Shown piece by piece: positions 2,275 through 22,681 of a DNA stretch of 22,681 nt. Every line of letters starts with the position of its first letter. Position 1 is the stretch's first letter. The notes beneath the pieces were generated by a model, which worked only from the letters and a program-made list of their open reading frames with translations, had not been told where the DNA came from and searched no databases. The DNA comes from a virus: IMG/VR virus record IMGVR_UViG_3300006071_000104, positions 1 to 22,681 of that record, one strand, 5' to 3'. The translations under genes and the position numbers were made by a program.

Positions 2275-4578
2275 TTAAATTACACAACTATCACAATCTT
2301 CTTGATCGACTATTTCAGCAGGAATATCTTGTTTGGCTGACATTTTGTCTACATCTATCTCGCCCTGCTGATCATTTGTTTGGAAGTAATAAAGTTGCTT
2401 AGTACCATACTTATAGCACATGATCAGGTGCTTGAGCATTTCACTCATAGGGATTTTTTCATCTTCATAAAATCTTGGATTATATGAAGTGTTGACACTA
2501 ATGCCTTGATCAATATACTTTTGTAATATTGCACAAATTTTCAAATAGCCTTCTGGCGATTTTTGATCCCATAACAATTCATATTTGTTTTTAAGTTTAC
2601 GATACTCAGGGACTACTTGTCTTAGAGCACCGTGTTTGCTTTGTTTAACACTTACATAACTACGTGGAGGTTCGATACCATTTGTAGCGTTGCTGATCTG
2701 TGCACTGGTTTCTGCTGGCATCAGTGCCATTAGTGTAGCATTACGCTGACCAGTTGTTTTGATTTGTTCACGCAACTCTGCCCAAGGCATACGCTCCTGA
2801 TGTGGCACTAGCTCGTCTACTTCACGCTTGCGAGTATCAATAGGCAGTCTACCATCTGCAGACTTCAAATCCTTCCAACGACCGCACGCACCTTGTTCGG
2901 CGGCAAGATCGGCACTTGCTTTGATAAGATAATAACTCCACGCTTCGGCGTACTCATCTACCAATGCTAGTGCAGCTGGATCACTGTAGCTAACACCATT
3001 CTTAGCCAAGAAGTAAGCAAAGTTAATAATTCCCACTCCCAAGGGACGGAATTCTTGTGTGCTCAACTCTGCCGCACGAATTGGATAGTTTTGATAACTT
3101 AACAATGCATCTAATCCGCGAACCGCCAAACGGCAAATTCTTTCAAAGTCTGCGGGCGCTTTGACATTGCCCCAGTTAATAGCACTGAGTGTACATAATG
3201 CAATACGTCCGTTTTCATCATTAATATCAGTTAATGGTACAGTAGGTAAATCAATTTCACTGCAAAGGTTACTCATCTTGATAGGAGCAACTTCTTCTTT
3301 GAAAGGACTGTGTGTATTTGCGTGATCCACATTCTGCAAATAGATACGACCAGTGTCTTTGCGTTCTTGCATAAATCTACTGAACAAGTCAATGGCCTTG
3401 ACTGTTTTCTTGCGCAATTTGGTGTTACGCTCTGCACGTTCATACAGTTCTTTGAACTTGTCTTGGTCATTAAAAAACGCTTCATATACTTCGGGAATAT
3501 CGTGTGGGCTAAACAAAGTGATGTCGCCGCCTGTGATCAATCTTTCGTACATTAGTTTATTAAACTGTACTCCGTAATCCATATGACGCACACGATTGTC
3601 TTCAGTTCCTTTGTTGTTTTTAAGAACCAACAAATCTTCAACTTCCAAATGCCACAAAGGATAATACAATGTAGCCGCACCATTGCGTACTCCGCCCTGA
3701 CTACAACTGCGTGTTGCTGCTTGGAATAATTTGAAGAAAGGTGTTACACCCGTATGGTATGCATCGCCGGACCTGATAGGCGATCCCAACGCCCGAATTC
3801 GTCCTGCACCGATTCCAATACCAGCTTTCTGGGAGACATACTTAACAATACTACTAGCAGTAGCATTAATACTATCAAGGCTGTCATCAGCTTCAATAAG
3901 AACACAACTACTAAACTGCTTTTGCGGAGTACGTACACCAGCCATGACCGGAGTTGGTAAACTAATATCGTGCGTGCTAATTGCATCGTAGTATTCCTTA
4001 ACATATTGTAATCTTACTTCCTTGGGATAGCTTTGGAATAATGTGGCTGCAATTAGTACATAAGCTACTTGGGGTGTTTCTTTAATTTCTCCTGTAACAC
4101 GATTTTGTACAAGATACTTACCTCGCCATTGTTCCATTGCAACGTAGGTAAAGTTTTCGTCTCGCTCGTGACGTATGAAACTATTGATCTGTGTCCACTC
4201 ATCCGTATTGTAGGCGGCGAGAAGGCCCGTATCGTAAAATCCAGACTCCACATTCTTTTTAACTATATCTAATAGAGCCGCCGGGGTATAATCGTTATAG
4301 ACTTCTTTGCGTAGATGATAGTTAATTAGTCTACCAGCAACATACTGATAGTTAGGAGTATCTTCGCTGATCAAGTCAGCAGCTGATTTGATTAGTGTTT
4401 CTTGAATATCTGCAGTTTTAATACCGTTGTAAAACTGTATGTGGCTTTTGATTTCTAATTCGCTTGCGCTGACTCCGGTAATATCCTTGGTTGCCCAAAA
4501 TACCACTTTATGTAATTTCTCTAGATTTAACGGTTCTTTGTTGCCGTCTCGTTTTGTAACTTGAATGGGTGCTGTCAT
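2275..4578 (-). CDS. nrdA: Class Ia ribonucleotide reductase, alpha subunit (NrdA)
   Basis: A 767-residue catalytic subunit, close to the 761 of E. coli. Residues 5-95 form an ATP-cone, so dATP activity control is expected. The active site aligns with E. coli numbering without offset: C225 (FSSCVL), N437, C439 and E441 (SNLCSEID), C462 (ALCTLS), and radical-transfer Y730-Y731 (QLYYFQ). The signature PAETSAQISNATNGIEPPR is intact. The C-terminus ends C762-D-S-C765, the shuttle cysteines, spaced more tightly than the E. coli CX4C pair. It reduces ribonucleoside diphosphates for phage DNA synthesis. No intein, split or intron is present, although such interruptions are common in phage nrdA genes. 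The AAGAGA ribosome site precedes ATG. Confidence 0.97.
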   Translation of the reverse strand: MTAPIQVTKRDGNKEPLNLEKLHKVVFWATKDITGVSASELEIKSHIQFYNGIKTADIQETLIKSAADLISEDTPNYQYVAGRLINYHLRKEVYNDYTPAALLDIVKKNVESGFYDTGLLAAYNTDEWTQINSFIRHERDENFTYVAMEQWRGKYLVQNRVTGEIKETPQVAYVLIAATLFQSYPKEVRLQYVKEYYDAISTHDISLPTPVMAGVRTPQKQFSSCVLIEADDSLDSINATASSIVKYVSQKAGIGIGAGRIRALGSPIRSGDAYHTGVTPFFKLFQAATRSCSQGGVRNGAATLYYPLWHLEVEDLLVLKNNKGTEDNRVRHMDYGVQFNKLMYERLITGGDITLFSPHDIPEVYEAFFNDQDKFKELYERAERNTKLRKKTVKAIDLFSRFMQERKDTGRIYLQNVDHANTHSPFKEEVAPIKMSNLCSEIDLPTVPLTDINDENGRIALCTLSAINWGNVKAPADFERICRLAVRGLDALLSYQNYPIRAAELSTQEFRPLGVGIINFAYFLAKNGVSYSDPAALALVDEYAEAWSYYLIKASADLAAEQGACGRWKDLKSADGRLPIDTRKREVDELVPHQERMPWAELREQIKTTGQRNATLMALMPAETSAQISNATNGIEPPRSYVSVKQSKHGALRQVVPEYRKLKNKYELLWDQKSPEGYLKICAILQKYIDQGISVNTSYNPRFYEDEKIPMSEMLKHLIMCYKYGTKQLYYFQTNDQQGEIDVDKMSAKQDIPAEIVDQEDCDSCVI

Positions 4579-4587
4579 TGATTTCTC

Positions 4588-5034
4588 TTATTGTATTTTT
4601 TCTAAATTTAGATCTTCGGCTGTTACCAAAGATACCAACTGTAACTCTTTTGCAATTTGTGTAGTATTTACAACCTCGTCGTGTATATAATTAAGCACAT
4701 ATTTTCCTTGCTCAACAAATACTAAATTATAGTGTTCTTTGGTTTCTGGATCATTATATACTCTTATTTCTAAGTCAGGCTGATGGCTGCTCAAGTACAA
4801 AGTATACACTATTCCAAGTGCTTTTGCAAGATCACAGTAATAATTTTCGTAAATTAATTCCCAAGGTCCGGGCCATTCACCAATATTATCGGTGTATAAG
4901 TAGTGTGCTACATAGGGTGCGTAGCTCCAAAGGTGCTGAGTATCTTGTACTGCTTCATTAAATGATTTTTGGCTAATAGATTTTCGAAAATCCTGCCAAC
5001 AACGAAGCCTCTCGTCTGGTAGTAGATTCCACAT
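4588..5034 (-). CDS. Unknown protein upstream of nrdA
   Basis: A 148-residue protein that starts MWNLLPDERLRCWQDFR and is rich in aromatic residues (Trp, Tyr). The middle (WPGPWELIYENYYCDLAKALG, residues 54-74) and a following segment with NLVFVEQGKYVLNYIHDEV look like a compact alpha/beta fold. I see no signal peptide, membrane segment or known catalytic motif. A transglutaminase-like fold crossed my mind because of the Cys in YYCDLAKALGI followed by a beta segment, but no convincing Cys-His-Asp triad could be placed. It ends 9 nt before the nrdA start, so it is almost certainly in the same transcript. Function unknown. Confidence 0.75.
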   Translation of the reverse strand: MWNLLPDERLRCWQDFRKSISQKSFNEAVQDTQHLWSYAPYVAHYLYTDNIGEWPGPWELIYENYYCDLAKALGIVYTLYLSSHQPDLEIRVYNDPETKEHYNLVFVEQGKYVLNYIHDEVVNTTQIAKELQLVSLVTAEDLNLEKIQ

Positions 5035-6327: not shown

Positions 6328-6657
6328 TTATACACTAAAGCTGCTGCCGCAACCACAAGTGCTGGTAGCATTAGGATTGGTTATAACAAAACTACTGCCC
6401 ATTAAATCTTCTTTGTAATTTATAGTAGCGCCTTCTAGATATTGCATACTGATCGCATCTATTAGCAATGTAATAGATTCTTTTTGAATAACAAAATCAT
6501 CGTCATTGGCTACTTCATCAAAAGTAAATCCGTACTGGAATCCGCTGCATCCGCCACCTTGAACAAAAGTTCTAAGTTTAAGATTTGGATTACCTTCTTC
6601 TGCAATTAAATCGGCAATTTTTGCAATTGCACTATCAGTTATCGTAAGTTGATCCAT
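6328..6657 (-). CDS. erpA: ErpA-type A-type Fe-S cluster carrier
   Basis: A 109-residue A-type carrier. The three cluster ligands are present: C37 in [11 protein letters not shown], and C101 and C103 in STCGCGSSF at the extreme C-terminus. The blocks [21 protein letters not shown] and [15 protein letters not shown] are those I remember from ErpA of Beta/Gammaproteobacteria rather than generic IscA or SufA, so the ErpA call is firm. ErpA receives Fe-S clusters from the IscU scaffold and delivers them to apo-enzymes. Its start overlaps the iscU end by 23 nt. No cysteine desulfurase is nearby. Confidence 0.93.
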
Positions 6658-7030
6658 GTTTTTTCCTATAATCTGCTATTGCGGCTTTTATAGCATCTTC
6701 TGCCAGAATTGAACAATGAATTTTAACAGGAGGCAAAGCAAGTTCTGAAGCGATTTCGCTATTTTTAATATTGCCGGCTTGATCTAATGTTTTCCCTTTG
6801 ACCCATTCCGAGACCAAACTAGAACTGGCAATCGCACTACCGCATCCGTAGGCCTTGAATCGAGCATCGCTAATAATACCGTTTTTGTCTACTTTAATTT
6901 GTAGTTTAAGAACATCGCCGCAGGCCGGTGCTCCCACCATACCTGTGCCTACATCTTCATCGTCCTTGGCAAAGCTACCCACATTGCGTGGGTTCTCGTA
7001 ATGATCAATGACTTTCTCAGAGTAGGCCAT
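6635..7030 (-). CDS. iscU: IscU Fe-S cluster assembly scaffold
   Basis: A 131-residue IscU. All functional residues sit at E. coli positions: C37, D39, C63, H105 and C106, and the LPPVK motif (99-103) recognised by the chaperone HscA. The start [19 protein letters not shown] is the canonical N-terminus, so I chose ATG at 7030 over a longer in-frame extension to 7066 that adds a basic, non-homologous leader. The start overlaps the stop of the cysteine-rich gene by one base (TAATG). It accepts sulfur from a cysteine desulfurase to build [2Fe-2S] clusters. The retained LPPVK and catalytic residues suggest a working protein that uses host IscS, HscA and HscB. Confidence 0.96.
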
Positions 7031-7194
7031 TAATTGTATCCTTGACCTTCGACGCAGGCTTCGCATTCACATTCGGTACAGTAATCGCAGTTTTGGCAAC
7101 TGTGCCCGCAATGCTGTTTACAACTACATTTACAATTGTAAGTGTATCGTTTGTAATTTTGAAATTCATATGTGTCGTTTGTATCGTCGTTCAT
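7030..7194 (-). CDS. Tiny cysteine-rich protein inside the Fe-S cassette
   Basis: A 54-residue acidic/polar protein with ten cysteines between residues 21 and 47 (positions 21, 23, 25, 29, 33, 36, 39, 42, 44, 47) and two histidines (28, 31), a dense CxC/CxxC array. I chose ATG at 7194 because it begins one base after the iscA stop. A longer frame to 7314 would overlap iscA by over 100 nt and has no support. The stop overlaps the iscU start by one base. I recognise no family: the pattern recalls metallothioneins or small zinc/iron-binding knuckles, but cysteine spacing alone cannot decide. With iscA and iscU either side, metal, persulfide or cluster handling is the natural hypothesis. There is no signal peptide. 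Confidence 0.72.
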   Translation of the reverse strand: MNDDTNDTYEFQNYKRYTYNCKCSCKQHCGHSCQNCDYCTECECEACVEGQGYN

Positions 7195-7195
7195 A

Positions 7196-7519
7196 TTATA
7201 TCCTAAAACTTTCTCCGCATCCGCAACGGTCTCGCTCATTGGGATTTGAGAATTCGAATCCTTCATTAAGTCCGTTTTTAACATAGTCCACTGTGGATCC
7301 TTTGATGTAAACACTATCCTTGGGGTCTACTAAGATAAAAAATTCAGGATATGTGATACGTATTTCTGGACCAGAGTTGTTGTTCTCAGTAACGTATTCT
7401 AACACATAAGCAAGTCCAGAGCAACCGGTGGTTCGGACTCCGATTCGTATACCTACAAAGTTTTTTTTATTTAATAAATTTCGAAGTTTGGTGACTGCTG
7501 ACTCTGTAAGAGTTATCAC
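7196..7519 (-). CDS. iscA: IscA-type A-type Fe-S carrier
   Basis: A 107-residue IscA with ligands C33 (VRTTGCSGLAYVLE), C99 and C101 (CGCGESF). The GVRTxGCSGxAYVLE and GLNEGFxFxNPN blocks are IscA-specific and differ from ErpA next door, so the phage carries two functionally distinct A-type carriers. The frame starts with GTG (7517-7519), and ITLTESA follows as in host IscA. The upstream gene stops 4 nt before it, and a purine-rich AAGAAG lies about 12 nt upstream. The middle (residues 46-70) diverges more from the host form than IscU and ErpA do. It could deliver or store iron/clusters for IscU-dependent assembly. Confidence 0.92.
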   Translation of the reverse strand: MITLTESAVTKLRNLLNKKNFVGIRIGVRTTGCSGLAYVLEYVTENNNSGPEIRITYPEFFILVDPKDSVYIKGSTVDYVKNGLNEGFEFSNPNERDRCGCGESFRI

Positions 7520-18808: not shown

Positions 18809-18967
18809 TTATATAATTAAATTATCCCCGGACTCAGTTAATATCTGAGTTACACCATCTTCTGTAGTCAAATCATTGTATATAACCACATAGGCATTTA
18901 ATAGGGTAACTGCAATGTTACCTATGTCAATGCCACTACCAATTTTTACACCAGATTCGATTATCAT
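18809..18967 (-). CDS. Small protein coupled to the giant adhesin
   Basis: A 52-residue protein [20 protein letters not shown]... then YVVIYNDLTTEDGVTQILTE. I chose ATG 18967 because it makes a 4-nt ATGA overlap with the adhesin stop. An in-frame ATG at 19033 would overlap the adhesin by 70 nt. It is beta-rich with Gly turns like its neighbours. It could be a small fibre accessory or chaperone-like piece; no family is recognised. Confidence 0.5.
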   Translation of the reverse strand: MIIESGVKIGSGIDIGNIAVTLLNAYVVIYNDLTTEDGVTQILTESGDNLII

Positions 18968-21900
18968 ACCAATCTTTCGATACTGATCATATTGTTGTTG
19001 TAGCCTATACCAACTACCAATGTTATTCTCCAAGCAATAGAATTTGAAGTATCTCTAATTACCCAGGTATCGGTCAGACCAGCACCACTCAAATTAGCAG
19101 AAGCACTTAAATATGCCGGTGTGGTAGTAACACTTAATGGACTAGTACCGCCATCAATGTAGCCGCCGGCTGTGCTACTACCATAAACAGTAAGTGTTCC
19201 TGATACGGTTGATACTTGTAAACTTGCGTTTCCACTAGAAGCCATTCTTACTTTTAGATTGCCTAAAGTAACATCTACACCACGATTAACAAATCCTGAG
19301 GCTTTTGTTATAAGACTAGTACTTGTTCCAGTAACATTCAGGTTGCCACCAACTGACACATTGCCAGTTGTGGTCATTGTGCCAAGCGTGTTAAGGGCAA
19401 AGGCTTGGTTAATCTGTGTGATGGCAGCACGGCTAAAGTAGCCACCACGGTGTTTGGCATTTAGGCCTGACGTACCGCCTGTTACTCTAAACTTGACAGT
19501 TTGATTTGTGCCGGGAGTATAAACAATATCTAAACTGATGTTGTTGACTTCATTGTAGCCGGTGTTGTATGCGGCCGATATCTGTTGGTTGCCGATTACT
19601 GCATTGGTTGTGGCATCAACCAGTTGAACTATCAAATATCCGTTGGCACTGTAACCAGCAAAGCTGAACATGCCCACAATATTGTAGGTCGACCCTGCAG
19701 TCAATGTGAACTGACCGTTTGATGTGCTGTAGGCAATGCCTGAACTGGTTGACAAGGTGTCCCAGATAATATCTGTACCTGTGGCATATACTGTTTGGTC
19801 AGCGGCATTGGTCACATTCACATACTGATTGTTTAAGGTGCCAGTAGCAGTGGCCTGAACTGCTATGGCCGGATTCAGTTGTTCAATTTCAACCACCGCC
19901 CCACCATTGACACCGTTGAAGGTGATGGTATTGTCAATGCTGGTCAATCGATATGTGGTGGCCTGAGTGGGTGTTACATACGCAATGGTTTCGTTGTTAC
20001 TTCCTATATGTCCGGCAGTACTGTCTACTGCTTCTGTAAAGCCACGAGTACCAACATAGGCACTGTCAGTCACACTATACCATTGGAATTGACCCCAGGT
20101 GTTTGACGACACAAATCTTGAGGCAGTAAACTTCAGTTTGTATGTCCAGCCTGGTTGTAGAGTAAATGTTGATGTGGTTGGTTGTGTGATCAATGATCCC
20201 ACAGAATACACACTATTTGAGAAAGGTACAGCACCACCGGCTGTGACTGCTACATCTCCACCAGTGTTAGTAGTCGCAAGCAATCTTGAACCATTTACTA
20301 CCCCATAAGTTGTTGGCTGACCGTTGACGATAATATTACTAACATTCAAATTGCCTGGAATAACAACATTACCGTTACTGGCAACTGTCATTCTTGTTGC
20401 TAATATATTTGCACCTGCACCAGGAACTTTTGTAGCAAAGTTGATGTTGGCACTATAATCACCGTTGTCAATAGCAAAAATTCTTGCTTCTGGTGGGAAT
20501 CCGGCACCACTATAGGTGTACAAATCAATAGCCGAGCCACTGCCAGCACCACCTCCAGTGTTGAATAAGTTCAATGTACTGACTACATTGCCAGCATTTG
20601 AAACAGTAACACTCATTGGAGATGCATAGTAAGCAGTGCCTACTGCGGTACCAACAAACAAACTAGTACCAGTTATAGTTCCGACTACACCCACATTAGT
20701 ACCAAATGTAGCAGAGTTATTAACTGTTAAATTGTTAACAGTAACATTGCCACCATAAGTTGCAGTAGTACCGTATGCATTACCAAAATGTGATCCAGCA
20801 ATATTGCCAGCAGTGATATTCCCTGTACCGCTACCAATACTAACACTCGCATTTGCTGCACCTGCATTAATTGCAGTAGCAACTCCGCCTATATTCAAAG
20901 TAGTTGCAGTGGTATTGAATACCGAAACATTGGTAGTGGCTGCAATAATACTTGTTGTAGTTACATCCTGTCCTGCGGTTAGATGTTGTAGGCCACTTAA
21001 TGTAGCAGTACTTGGATTGTAACGTAGCCCATTGCTCAATCCATTTAGCGAACTTGTTCCAGTATTGGCAAATACCACTGGATAATAATTGTTAACGCTG
21101 GTATTGGCTATGGTGCTAGTAACGGCCGACACATTTGTTATTTGTGTGCCATCACCAATTAAACTTGCACCAGCGTTACCGATAGTAGCAGCATTTACAG
21201 TTGTACCATTTAGTGTACTGGTTAGCGTTAAGCCAGCAAAAGAAGGCGAACCATTTGTTTGTAAATTTTGTGGGCTACTGATAGTTACGGTATTACCGCT
21301 GGCAGTTATTGTAACACCATTTGTACTGGCAAATGCCAATGTTTGATTAATTAAACTAACTGATCCAGTTCCGCTTGTACCAGACATACTCAACGAGCTA
21401 CTGACACTGGCAGTGCCGATATTGGCAACACGGCCATATGGGTCTAACGTAATTACTGGAATACTAGTGGCATTACCTGTAGTGCCTGCTCCAGGACCAG
21501 CAGTAGTTAAACTGATATTTGAACCAGTAATAGTTAAATTACCTGTACCTGATGAAGTCGAAACCACACGATTACCATTATCAGTAATCACATTGCCTGT
21601 AACGCTACCGGTTGTGCTGATTGGAAGATTGAAAGTCCACGCATTGCTGATACTGTTATATAATATACTGGCATTTGCACCGTTGGCAAATATACCTGCA
21701 CCGTTGGCCTGTGTTGTAGTACTAGCGTTTGCAGCCAAAGTAATTACTAAATTACTCAATGTTAAATTGGTGGCATTTACTGTAGTAGTGGTACCACTAA
21801 CCTGTAGATTTCCTAAAACATATAAACTGTTGCCTACAATAGCATTGCCACCTACTGTAGTATTGCCTGACGATTGTATTATAGTAGCAGATAATACATT

Positions 21901-22681
21901 GACATTTGAAATGTTGCCCGATGACCCAGTGGTAGTGATATTACCACCTACATATAACGCTCCGCCAATACCAACTCCACCTACTACTTGCAATGCACCT
22001 GTTGTGGTACTGGTTGCAGGTGTGGTGTTTGTTGTGATAATTTGTTGTGTAGTTGTGCCTGAAAATATTCCAGTAGGTCCTTGTGGGCCTTGTGCCCCAG
22101 TTGAACCCTGTGGTCCTTGTGGTCCTTGTGCCCCAGTTGAACCCTGTGGTCCTTGTGGACCTTGTGTTCCTGCAGAGCCGGCGGTTCCTTGTGGACCTTG
22201 AGGGCCTTGTACTCCCGAAGAGCCTGCAGCTCCTTGTGGTCCTTGCGGTCCTTGTGCCCCAGTTGGTCCTTGTACTCCGGTGGCACCTGTCGGGCCTACT
22301 ATTCTACCAGCATCGTGCCAAGTACTGTCTGCACCCCAAAACCAAACATTACCTGTATTTGAAGTAATATATCCATCGTCTAAATTATTGCTGGTATTTG
22401 GTAAGAATGTATAGTCTGTTACTGTACCCAATAATGTTACACTAACACCTTGTTGTCCTTGTGGACCTTGTGGTCCAGTTTGCCCTTGCGGTCCCTGTGG
22501 TCCTTGTGTGCCAATTGGTCCCTGCGGTCCTTGTATTCCCTGGGGTCCTTGAACACCTGCTCCAGTAGGTCCTTGTGGTCCTTGCGCTCCAGCGCTGCCA
22601 TTACTTCCACTTGGGCCTTGTGGTCCTTGTACACCAGTAGGTCCTTGTGGTCCTTGCGCTCCAGCGCTGCCATTACTTCCA
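18964..22681 (-). CDS. Giant collagen-like adhesin/tail fibre, N-terminus outside window
   Basis: The frame is open from the right edge to 18964, at least 1238 residues. A TTG at 22431 could be read as a start, but Gly-X-Y codons continue in frame upstream without a stop, so the gene begins beyond the window. From the N-terminal side: a Gly-X-Y block (22447-22680), a short domain ([20 protein letters not shown]), a second Gly-X-Y block (22069-22296), a long Gly/Thr/Asn/Val beta-repeat stem, two C1q/TNF-like jelly-roll-looking domains (about 20310-19870 and 19850-19420), and an end with [19 protein letters not shown] typical of phage fibre C-termini. Collagen triplets trimerise into rods; with jelly-roll tips this is a host-contact protein. 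No endosialidase-type peptidase was recognised. Confidence 0.88.
22069..22296 (-). repeat. Collagen-like Gly-X-Y block with 36-nt direct repeats
   Basis: Seventy-six residues of G-P-Q, G-S-T, G-A-Q and G-P-T triplets. Within it, a stretch of about 35 nt beginning at 22088 recurs at 22124 with a 36-nt period (four triplets). GPQ dominates, with proline in the X position and glutamine in Y, as in bacterial and phage collagens that lack hydroxyproline. Confidence 0.9.
22447..22681 (-). repeat. Collagen-like Gly-X-Y block with 48-bp exact direct repeat
   Basis: The block continues beyond the right edge. An identical 48-bp segment occurs at 22562-22609 and 22634-22681, offset by 72 nt (24 codons, eight triplets), so the period keeps the collagen frame. 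The second copy runs to the window edge and may be longer. One interruption (G-A-G-V, at about 22555) breaks the triplet register. Confidence 0.9.

Follow-up and report, generated by a model that had tools for sequence, protein, structure and literature searches.

Cys10, a conserved viral family of small cysteine-rich proteins and metal-thiolate candidate, found beside phage iscU and in other operons

Introduction

What does a protein of 54 residues, ten of them cysteines, do between two genes for Fe-S cluster assembly in a virus? The question is raised by one locus of the window, by which we mean the whole of IMG/VR virus record IMGVR_UViG_3300006071_000104 (22,681 bases), where a gene that we call Cys10 lies between an iscA-type gene and iscU. 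Phage iscU and A-type carriers have been presented as auxiliary metabolic genes in marine viral genomes (PMC5332604), and a phage iscA is reported (PMC8226683). The first-pass annotation of the window had described Cys10 as fixed between iscA and iscU and metallothionein-like in its Cys pattern, and had listed metal buffering along with inhibition of the Isc machinery, sulfur carriage and cluster holding among its possible roles. We wanted to know whether Cys10 is an Isc component or a protein of more general use.

Results

The Cys10 gene and its neighbours

On the minus strand, the genes run in the order iscA-type (7519-7196), Cys10 (7194-7030), iscU (7030-6635) and erpA (6657-6328), and then comes a PD-(D/E)XK exonuclease gene. 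The features of this operon are as follows:

7196..7519, minus strand: A-type Fe-S carrier, IscA-like; GTG start; Cys 33, 99 and 101; TIGR00049 at 99.8 bits, passing the cut-off of 58.8
7200..7204, minus strand: Shine-Dalgarno-like AGGAT of Cys10, within the final codons of the iscA-type gene; read from the sequence
7030..7194, minus strand: Cys10 gene, metallothionein-like; 54 aa, with 10 Cys and 2 His in residues 21-47
7054..7134, minus strand: Cys/His core of Cys10, residues 21-47, C-x-C-x-C-x2-H-C-x3-C-x2-C-x2-C-x2-C-x-C-x2-C; coordinates computed from the start at 7194
7039..7043, minus strand: Shine-Dalgarno-like AAGGA of iscU, within the final Cys10 codons, 8 nt 5' of the iscU ATG
7028..7032, minus strand: TAATG, overlap of the Cys10 stop (TAA, 7032-7030) with the iscU start (ATG, 7030-7028)
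6635..7030, minus strand: IscU scaffold; TIGR01999 at 219.7 bits, passing the cut-off of 192.4
6328..6657, minus strand: ErpA-type A-type carrier; Cys 37, 101 and 103; NF010147 at 173.7 bits, passing the cut-off of 117

The Cys10 protein of the window, MNDDTNDTYEFQNYKRYTYNCKCSCKQHCGHSCQNCDYCTECECEACVEGQGYN, has a mass of 6.3 kDa, a pI of 4.6 and a Cys content of 18.5% of residues, with three CxC and four CxxC motifs in its 54 aa. In the minus-strand translation, Cys residues were located at positions 21, 23, 25, 29, 33, 36, 39, 42, 44 and 47 and His at 28 and 31, confirming ten Cys and two His within a span of 27 residues. The plus-strand frame over the same locus is not the gene, the coding strand being the minus strand from 7194 down to 7030. 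A single base (7195) separates the stop of the iscA-type gene (7198-7196) from the Cys10 ATG (7194-7192). On re-reading the sequence, the first-pass annotation was found to be right in its coordinates and in both junctions, the 1-nt gap after the iscA stop and the TAATG shared with iscU, and its view that Cys10 is translationally coupled to both neighbours is supported as far as can be judged from sequence.

The window IscU retains Cys37, Cys63, Cys106, Asp39 (in the PACGD motif, 35-39), His105 and LPPVK at 99-103. With the IscU assembly residues and the three Cys of each A-type carrier in place, the neighbours of Cys10 look functional. The upstream carrier (7196..7519) scored 112.5 bits against the IscA model TIGR02011, under the cut-off of 150.6, and the second A-type gene of the window, downstream of iscU, is erpA. 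Further along, past the exonuclease gene, come nrdA and nrdB (read from ORF translations) and a glutaredoxin. Neither IscS nor HscA/B was noticed on reading the window's ORF translations, so host partners would presumably be needed. Elsewhere in the window, a very long tail-fibre-like ORF with collagen-like GPQGPQG repeats at its start lies at 18964-22431, and a further repeat-coding ORF is found at the contig end (22437-22673).

A chance control was made with 100 first-order Markov sequences of the window's length. No open frame of at least 40 aa with 10 Cys per 27 aa was observed; the maximum was 9 Cys per 27 aa, reached once, and 95 of the 100 sequences stayed at 5-7. We also observed that a second record, 99.3% identical to the window over 7,708 bases (51 differences), has no difference in the Cys10 gene.

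Conservation of the family

When the window protein alone was used as a query, 10 loci were detected in IMG/VR. Profile scans found 104, 118 and 72 stretches, from which the best 80 of 104 and the best 80 of 118 were taken, further relatives being included only where another scan returned them. Counted by their last 48 residues, 56 different sequences make up the resulting set; 55 are full-length, and many are closely related. The number of Cys is 10 in 49/55 and 11 in the other six, and the HC motif (His before the fourth Cys) is present in 55/55. Exact Cys/His spacing is kept in 49/55, the remaining 6/55 having altered spacing yet still 10-11 Cys, and the second His is kept in 44/55 and lost in 11/55. 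An eleventh Cys accompanies the lost second His in 4 of these 11 by eye, but three of them are one group and the fourth is L272, and we do not claim compensation.

In an alignment of 44 distinct homologues, all ten Cys, H28 and E43 are invariant (44/44), positions 37 and 41 within the Cys core are acidic in 44/44, and both Cys codons occur at every Cys column. The N-terminal YKR motif is partly conserved (Y 36/44, K 38/44, R 36/44) and absent in one group. In a wider alignment of 50 sequences, the ten Cys and the His remain invariant (50/50) and E43 nearly so. The metallothionein-like Cys pattern proposed at the outset is thus supported across the family, with 10-11 Cys and conserved CxC/CxxC. 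The dN/dS check that had been suggested along with it gave a median of 0.23 over the 66 pairs whose dS was usable (0.05-1.5); every one of these pairs lay below 1, and none of them included the window. These results indicate, at the sequence level, that the Cys10 family is under purifying selection. Conservation across homologues is the decisive evidence that the ORF is real, and the 44/44 conservation, the dN/dS values and the Markov control together rule out a chance or mis-called ORF.

In the family tree, iscU-linked members fall in more than one place, the sequences being short and support not having been assessed. AlphaFold2 gave no confident fold from either 44 or 50 sequences (pLDDT 56.4 and 57.9, pTM 0.26 and 0.27). 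Such low confidence is as expected for a fold made by metal, although a shallow alignment alone could also cause it.

Searches for known relatives

Pfam has no family for the window Cys10. Across 34 members, Pfam returned two unrelated single-member matches (E 0.062 and 6.2) and no zinc-finger or Cys-cluster domain, and the prokaryotic metallothionein family PF02069 matched neither the window protein, nor any of the 34, nor L272, L276 and L261. As a control, SmtA matched PF02069 at 4.5e-21 and was also found by the PDB search, so that both searches are able to detect an established bacterial metallothionein of similar length. No PDB chain was matched by the window protein or by Cys10 profiles. 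NCBIfam gave no family for the window Cys10, the sole member tried there, and it matched nothing in NCBIfam, Pfam or PHROGs at E up to 1, the known Isc components (iscR, iscS, iscU, iscA, hscB, hscA, fdx, iscX) included. In PHROGs v4 the window protein had no match and 50 members weakly matched six families, with 1-3 members each and a best E of 0.046; PADLOC anti-phage defence models gave 0 families for 50 members.

With BLAST run with its low-complexity filter on, which may cost sensitivity, phage records gave no match for the window Cys10 at E up to 1 and two chance matches at E 5 for the L122 member, for which plasmid records gave none. Two pattern scans of a prokaryotic genome collection, which require conserved stretches and could miss distant relatives, gave 78 and 163 pattern matches and 0 confirmed relatives, leaving a bacterial origin unsupported. 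Among the collections searched, Cys10 occurs only in viral contigs.

Classical metallothioneins have few or no aromatic residues, bacterial members being laxer in this respect. With 6 Tyr and 1 Phe among its 54 residues, and Tyr38 within the Cys core, the window Cys10 falls outside this classical definition; it fits the broad one as far as small size, a very high Cys content and CxC/CxxC repeats go.

Genomic contexts and the link to iscU

We looked at the position of Cys10 for the 55 full-length members. Many of them are close relatives, so the context counts are not counts of independent events. The largest group (22/55) lies in a neck/tail slot, with a virion neck gene (phrog_11591) on one side and a gene for the tail-sheath stabiliser (phrog_11196/227) on the other. 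Another 11/55 are beside erpA or iscA without adjoining iscU; 8/55 are directly upstream of iscU (the window, L271, L110, L273, L225, L195, L229 and L238) and 1/55 (L096) is upstream of it with one gene between. Ribonucleotide reductase (RNR) genes are the neighbours in 4/55 (L275, L278, L261 and L227), and the last 9/55 are in other or unread settings, an exonuclease being among the contexts seen. Linkage to isc genes is therefore not constant, 35/55 being elsewhere or unread.

At the RNR loci, the order nrdA-Cys10-thioredoxin-nrdB was found in L275 (50-3287) and L278 (1-3040), with genes abutting or nearly so. In L261 (13-1406) the contig is cut just upstream of Cys10, and thioredoxin and nrdB follow; among these three loci, Pfam labels were obtained for L275 only. 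In L227, nrdA precedes Cys10 and an isocitrate lyase gene follows directly at 3590-4816 (PF00463, E 3.5e-100). A look-alike of isocitrate lyase, judged by its first residues, is also found near Cys10 in L272 (8289-9500). Directly 5' of Cys10 in L100, the ORF at 431-1129 resembles a membrane fatty-acid desaturase, its HRGQAH and HRKHH motifs being what we take to be desaturase-like. The gene between Cys10 and iscU in L096 (5150-5746, the same gene as L097) encodes a 198-aa protein, sulfotransferase-like by eye.

In the eight directly upstream members, Cys10 overlaps the iscU start or sits at most 2 nt away. The gene on its other side varies (an IscA-type gene, a gene for an exported-looking His-rich protein, one for a small protein some 83 residues long, and others), and since the Cys10-iscU pair persists while this neighbour changes, the pairing looks selected. 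A similar ORF upstream of iscU in other phages, which the first-pass annotation had proposed to look for, does exist in these eight (window included) and, one gene away, in the ninth; homologues keeping the Cys pattern do adjoin iscU elsewhere, and the objection that the annotation had raised against itself, that there might be none, falls away. Its description of Cys10 as fixed in an Isc position did not hold. Of the eight, only the window, together with the second record 99.3% identical to it, has the order iscA-Cys10-iscU, and most family members are located elsewhere, for example in the neck/sheath-stabiliser slot or beside RNR genes.

We also looked for Isc genes from the other side. The iscU survey covered the best 80 of 514 iscU relatives, and 27 of 27 long phage iscU records, chosen for lacking a neighbouring Cys10, had no copy anywhere in the available sequence. 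Over 30 Cys10 records, IscU was found in 9 and an IscA-type protein in 18. In the 20 control records of the sheath-stabiliser locus read as lacking Cys10, the counts were 0/20 and 1/20; one of these controls, L289, carries a truncated Cys10, which leaves 19 without it. The apparent association of Cys10 with Isc genes vanishes in the neck-context subset, where iscU was found in 0/10 records and an A-type carrier in 1/10 (often fragments, and several close relatives), and we do not claim it. As the records are fragments, absences are lower-grade evidence. A strict iscA/iscU partner is rejected as a family-wide property by the context counts and by the iscU records without Cys10, and this distribution does not require an Isc-specific role such as inhibitor, sulfur carrier or cluster holder. 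Altogether, the sequences indicate that Cys10 is a conserved viral family and a metal-thiolate candidate, not an Isc component as such.

Other small genes were noticed upstream of phage iscU. By a strict count, 8/80 loci (best 80 of 514) have an exported-looking His-rich protein at most 450 nt upstream, with a signal-like start, an HHGHGH-like run, a GG-rich stretch and a VVQQPP-like tail; the loci named for it are L003, L016, L021, L044, L056, L057 and L072. In L021, Cys10 lies between the gene for this His-rich protein and iscU. Lower-His versions were seen by eye at more loci. In L028 and L031 a 67-aa protein, cold-shock-like by eye, lies upstream of iscU, and in L029 a 59-aa ORF is found there in tandem duplicate.

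Empty sites and translational coupling

The neck/sheath-stabiliser junction was surveyed in the best 80 of 143 stabiliser relatives, of which 79 were examined (L303 was left out). Cys10 was found in 23/79 loci and was absent in 54, the last two (L289 and L301) being unreadable. In relatives 74-76% identical in the stabiliser protein, the site is empty and the neck stop directly overlaps the stabiliser start (..gcagataattaATGGAACATTTT). In carriers, Cys10 fills exactly this overlap point, by gain there or by loss in the relatives. The copy number was one in 11/11 records searched.

A Shine-Dalgarno-like word is present in the tail of Cys10 in 49/55 members, where shuffling of the tail bases predicts 17.0; as shuffling disregards the encoded residues, conservation of the C-terminal residues of the protein could account for some of this excess. 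In 39/55 the Cys10 stop shares bases with a start codon. The frequent tails GQGYN and GKEFN read as at least partly a ribosome-binding site, and the gene as a whole reads as a portable, translation-coupled cassette, insertable between two genes without cutting the translation of the second.

Discussion

The reading that we favour, with about an even chance of being correct, is that Cys10 may be a metallothionein-like Zn/Cu(I) thiolate buffer for about 3-4 ions that spreads as a portable, translation-coupled gene. We infer metal binding, its stoichiometry, the buffering role and any benefit to the Isc proteins. Eleven near-invariant ligands (ten Cys plus the His that precedes the fourth of them, in most members joined by the second His) would wrap some three to four soft ions, with Zn(II) or Cu(I) the likeliest, and the protein would act as a cytosolic metal buffer during infection. 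SmtA has eleven ligands as well, 9 Cys and 2 His, in its Zn4Cys9His2 core (PMC10119931). The shifts of spacing in 6/55 at a constant 10-11 Cys are easier to reconcile with a thiolate cluster that is flexible than with a rigid zinc finger, and the diversity of contexts (Isc, RNR with thioredoxin, neck/tail, exonuclease) favours a general over a pathway-specific role. Placed exactly at a two-gene junction, Cys10 would keep the downstream gene translated by means of its Shine-Dalgarno-like word and stop/start overlap. In the window operon, a buffer of thiophilic metals would in addition shield IscU and the A-type carriers, at whose Cys sites Zn can bind. The use of a buffer beside isc genes would be obvious, Zn being tightly seated in IscU (PMC4243993) and, on human ISCU, a hindrance to iron entry and assembly (PMC6687725). 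PMC4243993 also reports a helpful effect of constitutively bound Zn on E. coli IscU, and this counts against zinc as a simple poison.

Several features speak against a buffer. The aromatic content exceeds that generally known for classical metallothioneins, and this counts against it, as does the lack of a profile match to prokaryotic metallothionein. The invariant E43 and the acidic positions 37 and 41 are unusual in an already negative cluster and might point to discrete structural sites, and the partly conserved YKR suggests a binding partner.

These same features can be put together as a zinc-stabilised interaction module, with three discrete Zn sites (Cys3His, Cys3His and Cys4), that would bind and redirect a host protein or nucleic acid, the metal being structural only. 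We regard this as possible, if doubtful. Ten Cys and two His make 12 ligands, that is three four-ligand sites, in the 44/55 with both His; the basic/aromatic YKR stretch before the core, E43 and the two acidic positions would suit such a module, and so would its presence in structural operons and beside nucleotide-metabolism genes. Fixed sites are hard to reconcile with the loss of the second His in 11/55 and the shifted spacing in 6/55, YKR is missing from one group, and no zinc finger was matched by Pfam in 34 members. A dedicated Fe-S partner, to which IscS/IscU would hand iron, sulfane sulfur or a cluster, or which would regulate the host Isc machine, is unlikely. In its favour, Cys10 adjoins the iscU start in 8/55 with differing upstream neighbours, 11 further members lie beside erpA/iscA, and phage IscU retains its assembly residues; against it stand the 22/55 in the neck/tail slot, the neck records with IscU in 0/10 and an A-type carrier in 1/10, much like the 20 controls (0/20 and 1/20), and the 27/27 other long iscU records without Cys10.

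Conserved His and CxC repeats are features of metal clusters rather than of redox pairs. For this reason, and with just 4/55 members beside RNR genes, we hold it very improbable that Cys10 serves phage enzymes, ribonucleotide reductase for one, as a thiol redox buffer or reductant, with metals incidental, even though nrdA-Cys10-thioredoxin-nrdB is found in L275 and L278, Cys10-thioredoxin-nrdB in L261 and nrdA-Cys10 in L227, and though nrdA, nrdB and a glutaredoxin are also encoded in the window. The 22/55 members between a neck structural gene and the sheath stabiliser gene could also suggest a disulfide-rich structural or virion-associated protein from tail operons. Its absence at 54/77 readable neck/stabiliser junctions, the closest being 74-76% identical in the stabiliser protein, its presence in non-structural operons and the lack of a signal peptide by eye leave only the slimmest chance of this.

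A decidedly unlikely extension of the metal-buffer reading is that, in Isc-linked phages, apo-thionein Cys10 translated in step with IscU would strip the newly made scaffold of the Zn blocking its assembly site, letting iron enter and Fe-S clusters be built fast. In human ISCU, bound Zn hinders the insertion of iron and the assembly of Fe-S clusters, and a chelator removed it in vitro (PMC6687725); E. coli IscU binds Zn at about 1e-13 M (PMC4243993). The latter paper reports, to the contrary, that constitutively bound Zn helps cluster formation.

If Cys10 binds metal, it would represent a family of metallothionein-like proteins that has no name in the libraries searched and was seen in this work in viruses alone, and phages would handle host trace metal with a dedicated protein, not with enzymes alone. 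The carriers appear to be tailed phages with neck and tail-sheath genes. The repeated placement by iscU, erpA and RNR genes directs attention to cofactor assembly, and the apparent travel of a gene of about 50 codons with a ribosome-site-like word in its tail offers a checkable example of operon-sparing small-gene movement.

Comparison with known systems

No phage metallothionein or Cys-rich Isc partner was found in the literature covered, that of open-licence PMC papers. TCR/CXC and pre-SET Zn3Cys9 domains have runs of CxC/CxxC in which about nine or ten Cys bind three Zn; their spacing differs from that of Cys10, and no such Pfam match was obtained in 34 members. Prokaryotic metallothionein (PF02069, SmtA) is like Cys10 in its length of about 50-56 aa, its similar number of Cys and His, its CxC and CxxC motifs and the likely 3-4 soft ions. 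Four Zn were measured in SmtA (PMC10612145), and for a metallothionein of marine cyanobacteria the expectation is that as many as four zinc can be sequestered (PMC9337993). Cys10 differs from PF02069 in giving no profile match, in packing its Cys in a single run of 27 residues and in occurring, among the collections searched, only in viral contigs. The phage Fe-S assembly genes of PMC5332604 show the same kind of neighbourhood, with iscU, A-type carriers and glutaredoxin; Cys10 is distinct from them in that the part of that paper at hand describes no Cys-rich partner, the word "cysteine" being missing from its main text. Small phage moron or cassette genes likewise consist of one small gene at a junction that is absent in relatives. 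Unlike them, Cys10 is coupled to its neighbours through a Shine-Dalgarno-like word and a stop/start overlap, and it is found at several unrelated junctions.
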